Shown here piece by piece: positions 44,197 to 49,296 of a stretch of DNA of 64,000 bases. The DNA is from Actinomycetota bacterium (GTDB lineage Bacteria; Actinomycetota; Geothermincolia; Geothermincolales; RBG-13-55-18): NCBI GenBank assembly GCA_014360655.1, contig JACIXC010000010.1:1-64000 (forward strand), in the 5' to 3' direction. The translations under genes were made by a program, and so were the position numbers. Within the stretch, counting starts at the first letter, position 1. Every line of letters begins with the position of its first letter. Under the pieces are notes generated by a model. It searched no databases. It was given only the letters and a program-made list of their open reading frames with translations, and was not told where the DNA came from.

Positions 44197-44225
44197 TTGA
44201 CAGCTCAATATCTTGTATTTTACCT
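44197..44225 (+). promoter_or_regulatory. Promoter candidate for nrdR-nrdD operon
   Basis: A perfect TTGACA (44197-44202) with a 17-base spacer is followed by TTACCT (44220-44225), 55 bases before nrdR. The flanking bases are AT-rich and include a CAACATGTTG dyad just downstream (about 44240-44250). I do not see a clear pair of NrdR boxes. Confidence 0.5.
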
Positions 44226-44280
44226 TGATTCCACAACACAACATGTTGAATCGCAGCTACCGGCTGGGGAGGGGAAAGCC

Positions 44281-44766
44281 ATGAAATGCCCCTTTTGCGG
44301 TTATCCGGACAGCAAGGTCATAGATTCGAGAAACGCGGAACAGGGGACGGCGATAAGGAGGAGGAGATCCTGCAAGCAGTGCGGCAGGAGATTCACCACT
44401 TTCGAGAGACACGAACGTATGCCCATCGCCGTGGTGAAGAGGAGCGGGGACAAGGAGCCTTACAAGAGGGAGAAGCTCCTGGCGGGCTTGCGCAAGGCAT
44501 TTGAAAAGAGGCCGGTGACCAGCCAGGAGATAGAAGACCTGGCCATGGCCATCGAGGCGGAGTTGCGCGAGGAGGGTAAGAGCGAGATACCATCGAGCGC
44601 CATAGGCATGGCCGTGCTGCGCAGGCTTAAAGAGATGGACGAGGTGGCCTACCTGCGCTTCGCATCGGTTTACAAGGAATTCAAGGACATAAGCGAGTTC
44701 CAGAGCGAACTGGGGCAGCTGCTGGAAAAGAAGGTGGAGAAGAGCCGCACGCCTCAGGGACGTTAA
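44281..44766 (+). CDS. nrdR: Transcriptional repressor NrdR
   Basis: NrdR represses ribonucleotide reductase genes when dATP is high. The 161-residue protein starts MKCPFCGYPDSKVIDSR and has the zinc-ribbon Cys pairs CPFC...CKQC, then an ATP-cone domain (about residues 48-138, RSGDKEPYKREKLLAGL, ASVYKEFKDISEF). The start ATG 44281 follows GGGGAAAGCC; the frame is open upstream but without conservation. It sits directly before nrdD, 36 bases away, so it can control its own operon. Confidence 0.97.
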   Translation: MKCPFCGYPDSKVIDSRNAEQGTAIRRRRSCKQCGRRFTTFERHERMPIAVVKRSGDKEPYKREKLLAGLRKAFEKRPVTSQEIEDLAMAIEAELREEGKSEIPSSAIGMAVLRRLKEMDEVAYLRFASVYKEFKDISEFQSELGQLLEKKVEKSRTPQGR

Positions 44767-44802: not shown

Positions 44803-47598
44803 GTGACGGCCGCCAGTAACATAAGGGTTCTCAAACGCAAGGAGGCTGCGGAGGACGCAACGGATATAGCCCTCCTGGTAAGCACATCCTCGAAGGAGGA
44901 GATCAACCTCTGGGACAAGAGCAAGATAGTGAACTCACTCATCCTGGAGACGGAGGCCAGCCAGGAGCTGGCGCAGGAGATAGCGGACCGCGTGGAGGAG
45001 AGGATCGTGCAGGGTGGGATGAACACGGTCACCACCTCCATCATCCGCGAGCTCGTCGACCTGGAGCTTCTCGAACGCGGCCTGGGCACCATGCACAAGA
45101 AGCACTCCCACCTGGGCCTTCCCATGTACGACGTGGAGCAGATAATCACCAGCGCCAACAAGGAGAACAGCAACACCACCCACAACCCCGAGTCCATAAA
45201 CCTCACGCTCGCGGAGGCCATACTCAAGGAATTCGCCCTGCGCAAGGTGTTCTCCGAGGATATCGCCCGCGCACACATGCTGGGCGACATCCACCTGCAC
45301 GACCTGGGTTTCATCATCCGTCCCTATTCCTACCTCGGGGACACCGTGATCCACTGGAGGGTCAAGGGCTCCCCGCTCGTCTTCACCACCACCATGGAGC
45401 AGCTCTACCATCTCCTTCCGGGAGAAACGCGGCCGGAGCCTACGGTAAGGGTGAAATACCCCGGAGAGCTGGAGATCCTCGACCGCGGCGGTAGCTGGAC
45501 GGAGATCAAGCGGGTGGTGAAGAAGGACCGCCTGGGCAAGCAGATGGTCTTCATCGCCACCTCCGACGGCAGGTTCTGCGTGGTCACCCACGACCACCCC
45601 GTGATCACCGCCGACGAGGTAAAGCCGGCCTCCCTGGTGGAGGTGGGTGAGGAGGTGGAGACCCTGGAGCTCCCCGAGGACAAGGCCCTCCGTTTCGAGG
45701 AGATGAACATCACCCACCTCCTGGAGGCCAACGCCTCCACCCTCAGGCTGCGCTTCCACGCCGAGGACGTCGTCGAGGCGCGAAGGCGGTTGAGCGAGAT
45801 GGTCTCCAACGCTTCCCGCGCCGGGGCGCGCCGGGAGAGGAGGGGAAGGGAGCGGGCGAGGACGCCTTTCGGCGGCAGGTCGGGCCTGGCCAGGGTGGTC
45901 ATGGTGGAGCCGGTCGAGGTGCTCGACGTCTACATCTACGACGTGACCACCGGGAGCGGGACCCTTATCGCCAACGGCATCTACTCCCATAACTGCGGCG
46001 GGCACAGCCTCGAATACATAAAGAAGTACGGCATCTCGCTCCCCAACATCACCAGCACCTCGCGCCCCGCCAAGCATCCGGAGGTGCTCATAGGGCACAT
46101 GGTGAAGATGGCCTCCACCCTGCAGTCGCATTACGCCGGCGCCATCGGCTGGGAGGCGGTGAACATGTTCTTCGCTCCCTACCTGGTGGGGCTGGGGTAC
46201 GAGCGGGTCAAGCAGCTGGCCCAGATGCTCATCTACGAGTTCAACCAGCTGGCGGGGGCCAGGGGCAGCCAGGTGGTCTTCACGGATTTCAACCTCTACT
46301 GGAACATACCGCGCCATTTCCGCGAGACCCCGGCCATCGGGCCCGGCGGCGTGTACACGGGAAAGACCTACAAGGAATACGAGAAGGAGGCGCAGACCTT
46401 CCTCAAGGCCCTCTTCGAGGTTTACCTGGAGGGGGACGCCATGGGCAAGACCTTCGTCTTCCCCAAGCCCCTGCTCCACATCAGCGAGGATTTCTTCCGC
46501 ACCGAGGGGCACGAGGAGTTCCTCGAGCTGGCCTGCAAGGTCGCGTCGCGACAGGGGATAACCTACTTCGTCTTCGACCGCGGCGACGAGGTCACCGTAT
46601 CGCAGTGCTGCCGCCTCAAGCTGCGCCTGAAGGAGAGGGATCTCCAGGAGACCATGACCCCGGAGAAGATGCGCTTCACCGCCCTGCAGAACATCACCAT
46701 CAACCTGCCCCGCATAGCCTACAAGGCAAACGGCTCCGACGAGGTCCTCTTCTCGGAACTGCAGAAGGCCATGCACATGGTGGCCAGGGCGCACATACAG
46801 AAGAGGGACTTCATCGCCAGCCTCCTGGAGCTGGGGGTGAACGGGCCCCTCTCCGTGCTCTGCGACGCCAAGGACGGGGAGCCCTACCTGAGGCTGGACA
46901 GGCTGACCTACCTGGCCGGGCTCCTGGGCCTCAACGAGATGGTGCAGTACCACACGGGTCAGCAGCTGCACGAGTCCACGCAGGCTCTGAAATTCGGGCT
47001 CAAGGTGGTGGCGCACATGAAGAGGGCGTGCGAGGACCTCTCCGGGGAGTACGGGATCAACCTGGTGCTGGAGGAGTCGCCGGCGGAGTCGAGCGGCTAC
47101 CGCCTGGCGAAGCTGGATATGAAATACTACCCGGCGCAGGCCTCAAGGGTGCTCAAGGGAAACCTCGAGAGCGGGGAGTACTACTACACCAACAGCGTGC
47201 ACCTCAACGTGGAGGCGGACATCGACTACATAGAGAGGGTGAAGAAACAGAGCCTCTTTCACCCGCTCATAGAGGCGGGCGCCATCTGCCACATCTGGTT
47301 GGGGGAGCACGAACCCGACCCGGAATCCATAAAGAACTTCGTCATCAAGACCTTCCGCCAGACGCAGTCCTCCCAGATCGCCTTCTCACCGGAGTTCACG
47401 GTGTGCAACGACTGCCGGCGTACCCACCGGGGCCTGCAGGAGAAGTGCCGCGACTGCGGTTCGGAGAACGTGTACGGCATAACCCGCATCGTGGGATATT
47501 TTTCCAAGATAACCACCTGGAACAGGGGAAAGCTGGGGGAGCTGAAAGACCGCCTGCGCACGGACATGAAAGGAGGGCTGAGGCATGCAGCACCTTAA
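44803..47598 (+). CDS. nrdD: Anaerobic (class III) ribonucleoside-triphosphate reductase, with an intein
   Basis: NrdD reduces ribonucleotides to deoxyribonucleotides with a glycyl radical, under anoxic conditions. The 931-residue precursor has an N-terminal ATP-cone domain (about residues 5-95), the core, a C-terminal zinc-binding Cys set CNDC...CRDC (about residues 868-886) and the glycyl-radical motif RIVGYFS (about residues 893-899). Its core is interrupted by a 222-residue mini-intein (residues 176-397; see separate entry), and removing it leaves about 709 residues, normal for the family. The start is GTG 44803. It follows nrdR and precedes a thioredoxin-like gene and nrdG. Confidence 0.95.
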   Translation: MTAASNIRVLKRKEAAEDATDIALLVSTSSKEEINLWDKSKIVNSLILETEASQELAQEIADRVEERIVQGGMNTVTTSIIRELVDLELLERGLGTMHKKHSHLGLPMYDVEQIITSANKENSNTTHNPESINLTLAEAILKEFALRKVFSEDIARAHMLGDIHLHDLGFIIRPYSYLGDTVIHWRVKGSPLVFTTTMEQLYHLLPGETRPEPTVRVKYPGELEILDRGGSWTEIKRVVKKDRLGKQMVFIATSDGRFCVVTHDHPVITADEVKPASLVEVGEEVETLELPEDKALRFEEMNITHLLEANASTLRLRFHAEDVVEARRRLSEMVSNASRAGARRERRGRERARTPFGGRSGLARVVMVEPVEVLDVYIYDVTTGSGTLIANGIYSHNCGGHSLEYIKKYGISLPNITSTSRPAKHPEVLIGHMVKMASTLQSHYAGAIGWEAVNMFFAPYLVGLGYERVKQLAQMLIYEFNQLAGARGSQVVFTDFNLYWNIPRHFRETPAIGPGGVYTGKTYKEYEKEAQTFLKALFEVYLEGDAMGKTFVFPKPLLHISEDFFRTEGHEEFLELACKVASRQGITYFVFDRGDEVTVSQCCRLKLRLKERDLQETMTPEKMRFTALQNITINLPRIAYKANGSDEVLFSELQKAMHMVARAHIQKRDFIASLLELGVNGPLSVLCDAKDGEPYLRLDRLTYLAGLLGLNEMVQYHTGQQLHESTQALKFGLKVVAHMKRACEDLSGEYGINLVLEESPAESSGYRLAKLDMKYYPAQASRVLKGNLESGEYYYTNSVHLNVEADIDYIERVKKQSLFHPLIEAGAICHIWLGEHEPDPESIKNFVIKTFRQTQSSQIAFSPEFTVCNDCRRTHRGLQEKCRDCGSENVYGITRIVGYFSKITTWNRGKLGELKDRLRTDMKGGLRHAAP
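45328..45993 (+). other. Mini-intein inside NrdD, no homing endonuclease
   Basis: Residues 176-397 of NrdD break its sequence between RPY and CGGHSLEYIKKYG, which fit together as a normal NrdD core after excision. Block A begins SYLGDTVIHW (Ser1 where Cys is usual), block B is CVVTHDHPVIT with the TxxH of splicing domains, block F is VEVLDVYIYDVTT and block G ends SGTLIANGIYSHN with the penultimate His, terminal Asn and a Cys as first C-extein residue. There is no LAGLIDADG endonuclease; a basic, probably flexible linker of roughly 60 residues (about residues 305-365) occupies its place. Splicing is inferred. Confidence 0.9.
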
Positions 47599-47830
47599 GG
47601 TGTTCATAAAGCGGGATTGCCAGAAGTGCCCGGCGGCCAAGGAGGTGGCCGCGCGATTCCCGCGGACGGAATACTACGATATAGACGAGGTGGACGGCCT
47701 GGCGGAGGCCGCCTTCTACAGCGTGCTCTGCACGCCTTCCATCGTGGTGGTGGACGAGGAGGGCATGGAGCTCCATGCCTGGCGCTGCACGGTGCCCTCC
47801 TCGCGGGAGATCGCCGAGTGGTTGAACTGA
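47585..47830 (+). CDS. NrdD-associated thioredoxin/glutaredoxin-like protein
   Basis: The 81-residue protein has a thioredoxin-like fold pattern, with a redox motif CQKC (about residues 12-15) after the first strand, the sequence VLCTPSIVVVDEEG (cis-Pro loop) in the second half, and a C-terminal helix. It overlaps the end of nrdD by 14 bases and lies directly before nrdG. Small proteins of this type occur in the nrdD operon of anaerobes, where they may supply reducing equivalents to NrdD instead of formate or a thioredoxin. The active-site spacing is CxxC. Its physiological reductant is unknown. Confidence 0.85.
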   Translation: MQHLKVFIKRDCQKCPAAKEVAARFPRTEYYDIDEVDGLAEAAFYSVLCTPSIVVVDEEGMELHAWRCTVPSSREIAEWLN

Positions 47831-48577
47831 GTGAACCGAGAGATGTCCTGTTTTGACAGCCTGTGGGGCCTGCTGCCCTCGAGCATGATGGACTGGCCCG
47901 GCAAGGTGAGCGCCGTGCTCTTCCTGGGCGGGTGCAATTTCCGTTGCCCCTACTGCCACAACCCCGAGCTGGTGAGGGCGGACGGGAGCCTCGCGGCGGG
48001 TGAGGGGATGCGGTGGGAGGACGTGGCGGCCTTCCTCCGCTCGCGTGTGGGCTGGATAGACGGCCTCTCCGTCACGGGAGGGGAACCCACCATCCACGAC
48101 GACCTGCCCCGCCTGTGCTCGCTTGCGCAGGAGGCCGGTTTCCCCGTCAAGCTGGACACCAACGGAACCCGACCCCGCATGCTGCGCAGGCTCATCGAGG
48201 AGGGGTTGCTGGACTTCCTGGCCATGGACATCAAGACATCCCTGGAAAAATATCCCATGGTGGCGAGGCGGCCGGTGGATGTCGCGACCATCCTGGAATC
48301 CATCGACATCGTGCTGGAAAGCGGCATAGAGCACGAGTTCCGCTGTACCGTTGTGCCGGGGCTGGTGGACCTCTCCGACCTGCTCTCGCTCGCCCGCCTC
48401 ATCGCGGGCGCGGACCGCCTGGTGCTGCAGCAGTTCCGCCCGGAGCATACCCTCGACGCCTCCTACCGCGAGGTGCGCCCCTACCCCGAGGACCTGTTGC
48501 TGCGATGGGCGGAGGAGCTCGCGGCGCTCGTCCCCACGCGGGTGCGCGGCGTGCTGTCCATGCAGTTGCAGCACTGA
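47831..48577 (+). CDS. nrdG: Anaerobic ribonucleotide reductase activating protein
   Basis: NrdG is the radical SAM activase that generates the glycyl radical on NrdD. The 248-residue protein (GTG 47831, or ATG 47843) has the CNFRCPYC cluster motif within FLGGCNFRCPYCHNPELV (about residues 34-51), VTGGEPTIHDDL (GGE-type), LDTNGTRP and a C-terminal QQFRPEHTLD. It is a member of the longer, archaeal/clostridial group, whose first part (LLPSSMMDWPGKVSAVLFLGG) is characteristic. It ends the nrdR-nrdD-trx-nrdG operon. Confidence 0.95.
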   Translation: MNREMSCFDSLWGLLPSSMMDWPGKVSAVLFLGGCNFRCPYCHNPELVRADGSLAAGEGMRWEDVAAFLRSRVGWIDGLSVTGGEPTIHDDLPRLCSLAQEAGFPVKLDTNGTRPRMLRRLIEEGLLDFLAMDIKTSLEKYPMVARRPVDVATILESIDIVLESGIEHEFRCTVVPGLVDLSDLLSLARLIAGADRLVLQQFRPEHTLDASYREVRPYPEDLLLRWAEELAALVPTRVRGVLSMQLQH

Positions 48578-48654: not shown

Positions 48655-49296
48655 ATGGACGGAAACGGGAACGGCGCCGACAAGGTGCAGGACCCTTTCG
48701 CCGAACCGAGCCAGGCGCTGCGGCGCCGTGAGGCGAGCGAGATCGCGGAGACGGCCGGCGTGCCCGTGGAGGGGAACAGGCTGCGCCTCGCCTTTCTCCG
48801 CTGGGAGATACTGGTATACCATCCCGACCTGCGCATGGAGGTCCCGGATTTCCTCAACAACTTCGTGGTCAAACTCCTCGCGCTGCTCTACCTGGCCAAC
48901 GCGCGCGCCGTGCCCCTGGCCAACCAGTGGGTGCCCTACCGCGAGCTGAAGGACGGTCTCTTCTACGTGAAGAGTTTCTCGGACACGGTGGAGGACCGCC
49001 TGCGCCGCCGCTTCGGGGACGATCTCGAGGGTATGCGTGCGGCCTGCCTCGCGCTGGGAGGGAGGGAGGTGGAGCAGGGGGACCTGGGAATGGTGCTGAA
49101 CACCTTTCCGCGCCTACCCCTGCTCTTCATCGCATGGAAGGGGGACGAGGAGTTCCCGCCCAGCGTGCGCATCCTCTTCGACGCCTCTGCGACCAGCTAC
49201 CTGAACGCCTTCGAGCTGCGCATGCTCTGCGGCGAGATAGCCAACCGCCTTATCGGGATAGCGGACGGCCGCCTGCAGCTTCCCCCGTGCGCATAG
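48655..49296 (+). CDS. DUF3786 domain protein
   Basis: The 213-residue protein looks like the DUF3786 family of anaerobes: LRLAFLRWEILVYHPDLRME, then QWVPYRELKDGLFYVKSF and the C-terminal FIAWKGDEEFPPSVRILFDASATSYLNAFELRML are the recognisable blocks. Members occur next to corrinoid or CO-dehydrogenase genes elsewhere, but function is unknown. The ATG at 48655 has GGGAGGCGGGAC upstream. It stands alone, 77 bases after nrdG and about 210 before padR. The first 35 residues look disordered. Confidence 0.8.
   Translation: MDGNGNGADKVQDPFAEPSQALRRREASEIAETAGVPVEGNRLRLAFLRWEILVYHPDLRMEVPDFLNNFVVKLLALLYLANARAVPLANQWVPYRELKDGLFYVKSFSDTVEDRLRRRFGDDLEGMRAACLALGGREVEQGDLGMVLNTFPRLPLLFIAWKGDEEFPPSVRILFDASATSYLNAFELRMLCGEIANRLIGIADGRLQLPPCA

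Follow-up and report, generated by a model that had tools for sequence, protein, structure and literature searches.

Ser1/Ser+1 and Ser1/Thr+1 inteins each represent 5% of the inteins surveyed in a 2025 review, in which GOS-TerL is called the first intein with a Ser1/Cys+1 pair (PMC11766414). The NX motif was defined as a His preceded by Arg or Lys in Ser1 inteins with Ser+1 or Thr+1, and the same 2023 study cited GOS-TerL as a single Ser1/Cys+1 intein and suggested that the strong Cys+1 relieves the need for the NX His (PMC10189870). In the class III anaerobic ribonucleotide reductase (RNR) of P. copri, Cys171 of NrdD is the second of the cysteines that take part in the radical mechanism (PMC11226230). 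The locus described here lies in a window of 64,000 nt, which is the whole stretch of DNA analysed, and its nrdD gene is interrupted at this catalytic position by an in-frame insert of 222 residues. The insert is most probably (at about 0.85) a class 1 mini-intein that pairs Ser1 with Cys+1, lost its homing endonuclease, and then became fixed in the Solincola lineage of Geothermincolia.

Host Gene and Anatomy of the Intein

The features of the locus are collected in Table 1. The NrdD precursor carries an ATP-cone (PF03477) at residues 35–93 and the insert at residues 176–397, exactly between RPY and CGGHSLEY. The 81-aa thioredoxin-like protein is perhaps the reductant of this NrdD. The genome also encodes an RNR large subunit of class I/II type (PF02867), and NrdD is thus not its sole reductase.

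Table 1. Coordinates of the nrdD locus and of its intein in the window.
Feature	Position	Strand	Remarks
nrdR, RNR gene transcriptional repressor	44197–44766	+	TIGR00244, 193.9 bits
nrdD precursor ORF, class III anaerobic RNR	44803–47598	+	931 aa; PF13597, E = 8e-143; TIGR02487 over cut-off
N-extein	44803–45327	+	ends HDLGFIIRPY; continuous with C-extein in empty-site relative L030
Mini-intein	45328–45993	+	222 aa, Ser1 to His221-Asn222
Block A SYLGDTVIHWRVKG	45328–45369	+	Ser1, presumed first nucleophile; Ser in 15/15 family members
Asp67	45526–45528	+	20 residues before block B Thr87; invariant in 15/15 orthologues
Block B DGRFCVVTHDHPVI	45565–45606	+	Thr87, His90; includes Cys84
Fast-evolving linker	45808–45888	+	residues 161–187; 0/27 columns invariant
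Block F VLDVYIYDVTTGSGTL	45919–45966	+	Asp205; usual block F His missing
Block G ANGIYSHN	45970–45993	+	penultimate His221, terminal Asn222; TIGR01443 match
Cys+1, first C-extein residue	45994–45996	+	aligned to Cys171 of P. copri NrdD
C-extein	45994–47598	+	VSQCC (radical-cysteine region), RIVGY (glycyl radical site)
Thioredoxin-like protein	47585–47830	+	81 aa, between nrdD and nrdG; PF13192, E = 1e-5
nrdG-type radical SAM activase (NrdG2)	47831–48577	+	TIGR02495, 198 bits
DUF3786 protein	48655–49296	+	3' of nrdG

The first-pass annotation had described an endonuclease-free insert with intein block motifs, Ser1, and Cys+1, and its coordinates and flanks proved exact; a domain profile search found no match to LAGLIDADG or other endonuclease families in the insert. 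Taken alone, the insert reached 17.8 bits against Pfam Intein_splicing, below the cut-off of 35.8 bits, and 16.3–18.4 bits against TIGR01443 (intein_Cterm), just over the cut-off of 15.6 bits; a Pfam intein search of its own genome returned nothing, this sub-threshold intein included. A family profile built of the insert and its aligned relatives matched inteins in the PDB with E-values of 5.6e-9 and 1e-8. The AlphaFold2 model of the insert is of modest confidence (pLDDT 61), and a deeper alignment gave no better model (pLDDT about 60). With this modest-confidence model a HINT fold was recognized, as the 18 best PDB folds in Foldseek were all inteins (best E-value 8.9e-7); the PolB16 and TFIIB inteins are among the Foldseek hits. 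Taken with the empty sites of relatives (see below), these results are far beyond chance and confirm the insert as an intein.

The intein has the set of residues expected of class 1: a nucleophile at residue 1 (Ser1), TxxH in block B, Asp at position F:4, and a His-Asn end followed by Cys+1. S1, T87, H90, D205, H221, and N222 are all invariant across the 15 orthologues, and splicing of the NrdD precursor is predicted from this pattern. The weak profile scores of the single sequence and the missing block F His could also be expected of a non-splicing insertion domain of NrdD or of a degenerate intein past splicing, but this is the least probable of the readings considered and highly improbable altogether: none of the splicing residues varies, purifying selection acts on the insert, which parts a catalytic cysteine from the residues before it, and the empty sites of relatives are seamless.

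In the alignment with P. copri NrdD, Cys+1 falls on chain position 175, which is Cys171 when the 4-residue offset is subtracted; the alignment is weak at this end (4.6 bits) but in register with a conserved motif, and the offset was confirmed independently. Because Cys+1 aligns with a catalytic cysteine, the unspliced NrdD should be inactive, and a drift of the +1 residue to Ser is not readily possible.

Distribution, Empty Sites, and Inheritance

The intein was found in NrdD of all 15 genomes of the family, which comprise six genera of Candidatus Solincola relatives in Geothermincolia, with inserts of 214–223 aa and no internal stops. A scan of named genomes gave 12 loci, Candidatus Solincola species (class Candidatus Geothermincolia, Actinomycetota) among them. 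In the same order, genome G028 has an exact empty site, HDLGFIIRPYCGGHSLEYIK (RPY/CGGHSL), which was checked at the nucleotide level, and genome G030 has the insert, with its first residues lost at the contig end. Among the remaining families of the class, G021 is the only readable genome in which the site is not empty. The comparison with NrdD of relatives, proposed in the first-pass annotation, thus revealed empty sites both within the order and elsewhere in the class. A relative that had this stretch and lacked the intein motifs was sought as well, but wherever the intein is missing from relatives the site is cleanly empty. Support in the extein tree is weak around G028 and G030, and G028 may either have lost the intein or never have had it. 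Outside the class, protein queries covered 120, 247, and 396 genomes, a sample of one phylum.

A phage origin of the intein was considered and rejected, since no match to the intein was found in phages or in the scanned viral contigs. The allele of genome G098 had weak matches to phages, with at most 24% identity. No copies of the paralogue's intein (see below) were found on plasmids.

Pairwise dN/dS of the intein in the closest species pairs is 0.13–0.21, compared with 0.01–0.03 in the neighbouring extein, and the median across 89 pairs is 0.26 for the intein and 0.06 for the extein. Constraint is uneven along the insert, with 20 of 35 columns invariant in the C-terminal blocks versus none in the linker. 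Nine of 12 splits are common to the intein and extein trees, and the distances of intein and extein are correlated (r = 0.80, Mantel p 0.0005). An intein mostly inherited vertically with its gene and constrained to splice would show this pattern; a benefit to the host does not follow from it alone. Presence in 15/15 family genomes, inheritance with the gene, and purifying selection together indicate that the intein is fixed, as had been supposed at first reading. The additional suggestion that it is possibly domesticated exceeds the data, because any intein that has to be spliced out for the enzyme to work should be under purifying selection.

Full-Length Alleles and Probable Loss of the Endonuclease

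Alleles with Thr1 are inserted at the same site in six other Actinomycetota genomes: full-length LAGLIDADG alleles in G021 and G098, and further Thr1 alleles in G177, G267, G286, and G361. The allele of G021 is 424 aa long and has LAGLIDADG_3 and Hom_end domains (PF14528 and PF05204), G021 being the genome in which the LAGLIDADG-type region of the full-length alleles was domain-tested. The alleles of G098 and G267 are 380 aa long, those of G286 and G361 are 422 aa, and that of G177 is spread across two contigs. Two full-length Thr1/Cys+1 NrdD inteins were compared with the window intein; they share the insertion site and are 35–36% identical to it. Where complete, the full-length alleles (380–424 aa) have Thr1 and Ala, Glu, or Ser at the NX position, whereas the window intein has Ser1 and Asp67. 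The intein tree splits the mini-inteins from the full-length alleles with 99/99 support and long branches. The G021 intein (L062:4247–5518, − strand) ends in SKN instead of SHN, its penultimate residue being Lys and not His.

When the alleles are aligned, the LAGLIDADG domain of the full-length forms falls in the region of the fast-evolving linker of the mini-intein. The simplest reading, and a well supported one, is that the endonuclease was lost in an ancestor of the Solincola family, because full-length alleles at the same site have LAGLIDADG where the mini-intein has its linker; an endonuclease in the ancestral intein would follow from these relatives. The window intein, without an endonuclease domain and with related full-length alleles at its site, is thus a mini-intein, and the loss of the endonuclease from a fixed intein, proposed in the first-pass annotation, is supported by the endonuclease-bearing same-site alleles elsewhere in the phylum.

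Nucleophile Pair and the NX Position

The first-pass annotation had drawn attention to Ser in place of the usual Cys at residue 1. This is true of the intein, but Ser1 alone is ordinary; it is the pair of Ser1 and Cys+1 that is uncommon. The NX position was taken as 20 residues before the block B Thr, a spacing read from the Ser1 intein PI-PkoII in the alignment; a shift by one residue would lead to Lys66, likewise not His. All 15 mini-inteins have Lys-Asp (K66-D67) there, and Glu, Ala, or Ser is found in G030 and in the Thr1/Cys+1 alleles. Arg-His is present in 8/8 Ser1/Ser+1 or Ser1/Thr+1 inteins from second NrdD sites in the same phylum. With K66-D67 and Cys+1, the window intein falls outside the Ser1 subgroup that is characterized by the NX motif, and the absence of the NX His in the Ser1/Cys+1 mini-inteins agrees with the published suggestion on Cys+1.

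A second NrdD intein, inserted after GARG about 88 residues past Cys+1, is present at loci L057, L058, L059, L060, L061, L062, and L063. It is 574–577 aa long, Ser1/Ser+1, and LAGLIDADG-like, and unlike the fixed mini-intein it has a scattered distribution among several of the families in the class.

Genome G098 has a second NrdD gene (L085, on contig G098:C23) with a Ser1/Cys+1 mini-intein of 250 aa at the corresponding site, and this paralogue keeps Arg-His at NX. Loss of the NX His is therefore allowed and not required by the Ser1/Cys+1 pair. As this paralogue suggests, unannotated Ser1/Cys+1 inteins may be common. The same gene contains a further intein, about 618 aa long, at a second site nearby, and apparently a third one, starting with Cys, near the radical-cysteine region.

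Proposed Splicing Pathway and Alternatives

In the proposed class 1 pathway, Ser1 would attack the carbonyl of the preceding Tyr in an N-to-O shift, aided by Thr87 and His90 of block B and by Asp205 of block F. Cys+1 would then take the ester over as a thioester branch, Asn222 would cyclise with the assistance of His221, and an S-to-N shift would join RPY to CGGHSLEY and so form the mature active site. The NX His appears dispensable given the strong Cys+1, and the invariant Asp67 is presumed to act in its place.

Residue 1 is not constant, as the full-length alleles have Thr where the mini-inteins have Ser. The intein also lacks the NX His to which the activation of Ser1 is ascribed, and the best PDB match of the single sequence is the class 2 KlbA intein MJ0781. 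All this would suit a class 2-like bypass in which Cys+1 attacks the N-terminal junction directly and Ser1 or Thr1 are passengers or assistants. Such a bypass is nevertheless unlikely, as the KlbA match is limited to the block B region (E = 0.09), and two reviews accept Thr as residue 1 of class 1 inteins (PMC4031507, PMC7765530). Class 2 inteins have Ala1 and thus no nucleophile at residue 1, whereas Ser1 is invariant in the 15 orthologues and only Ser or Thr, never Ala or Gly, occupies residue 1 in all alleles read.

The question whether splicing is conditional on redox state had also been raised at first reading. In this case oxidation would block splicing and anaerobiosis release it, and the intein would switch NrdD. 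The host enzyme functions under anaerobic conditions only, the sole internal cysteine of the window intein, Cys84, belongs to block B and is close to the active site, redox traps are known in other inteins (PMC7765530), and delayed maturation of NrdD need not be lethal in a genome with an RNR large subunit of class I/II type. The orthologues give redox control no support and make it very unlikely, as Cys84 is missing in three of the 15 and the intein of L057 has no cysteine at all. Moreover, the usual disulfide of Cys1 is impossible with Ser1, and no conserved partner was found for Cys+1. The conserved trap-disulfide cysteine by which a redox-regulated intein would be recognized is thus absent; a Cys84 redox switch was rejected as a conserved trait, and a conserved disulfide switch inside the intein is excluded.

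Under the preferred class 1 reading, the host enzyme dictates Cys+1, since this residue is a catalytic cysteine in NrdD. Retention of the intein could be explained by its position, as imprecise removal would destroy the enzyme, and without an endonuclease the intein would be passed on with the gene. More tentatively, and at slightly less than even odds, these inteins may represent a chromosomal lineage with an energetically uphill Ser1-to-Cys+1 transfer (Thr1-to-Cys+1 in the relatives), in which the NX His is absent, Asp67 has taken its role, and the +1 residue is set by the catalytic cysteine of the host.

Comparison with Known Inteins

The GOS-TerL split intein (Bachmann and Mootz; cited in PMC11766414 and PMC10189870) is, by its description in these citing papers, similar in having Ser1/Cys+1 without the NX His. 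According to the same description it is metagenomic, split, and located in a terminase, whereas the window intein is contiguous, fixed in a family, and located in a chromosomal enzyme. If the proposed lineage is real, it would add a second allele to GOS-TerL and offer a natural test of Ser1 activation. The question can be tested directly with the 15 Asp67 orthologues, the same-site Thr1 relatives, the Ser1/Cys+1 paralogue that keeps His, and the Ser1/Ser+1 intein with His that one genus has at another site of this protein.

The inteins PolB16 OarG, PI-PkoII, and Mja TFIIB have Ser1, a HINT fold, and class 1 blocks like the window intein, but their +1 residue is Ser or Thr and their NX residue is His, where the window intein has Cys+1 and Asp67. 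A putative intein in nrdD of a Clostridium phage (PMC3653736) also interrupts a class III RNR, and the likeness drawn here is that of the host enzyme. The mini-inteins of Cryptococcus PRP8 (PMC1508164) are likewise endonuclease-free and vertically inherited, and belong to an allele series which includes full-length forms, but their host protein is another one and their host is eukaryotic. The NrdD intein clearly exemplifies an intein without endonuclease that is kept at a catalytic residue throughout an entire bacterial family.
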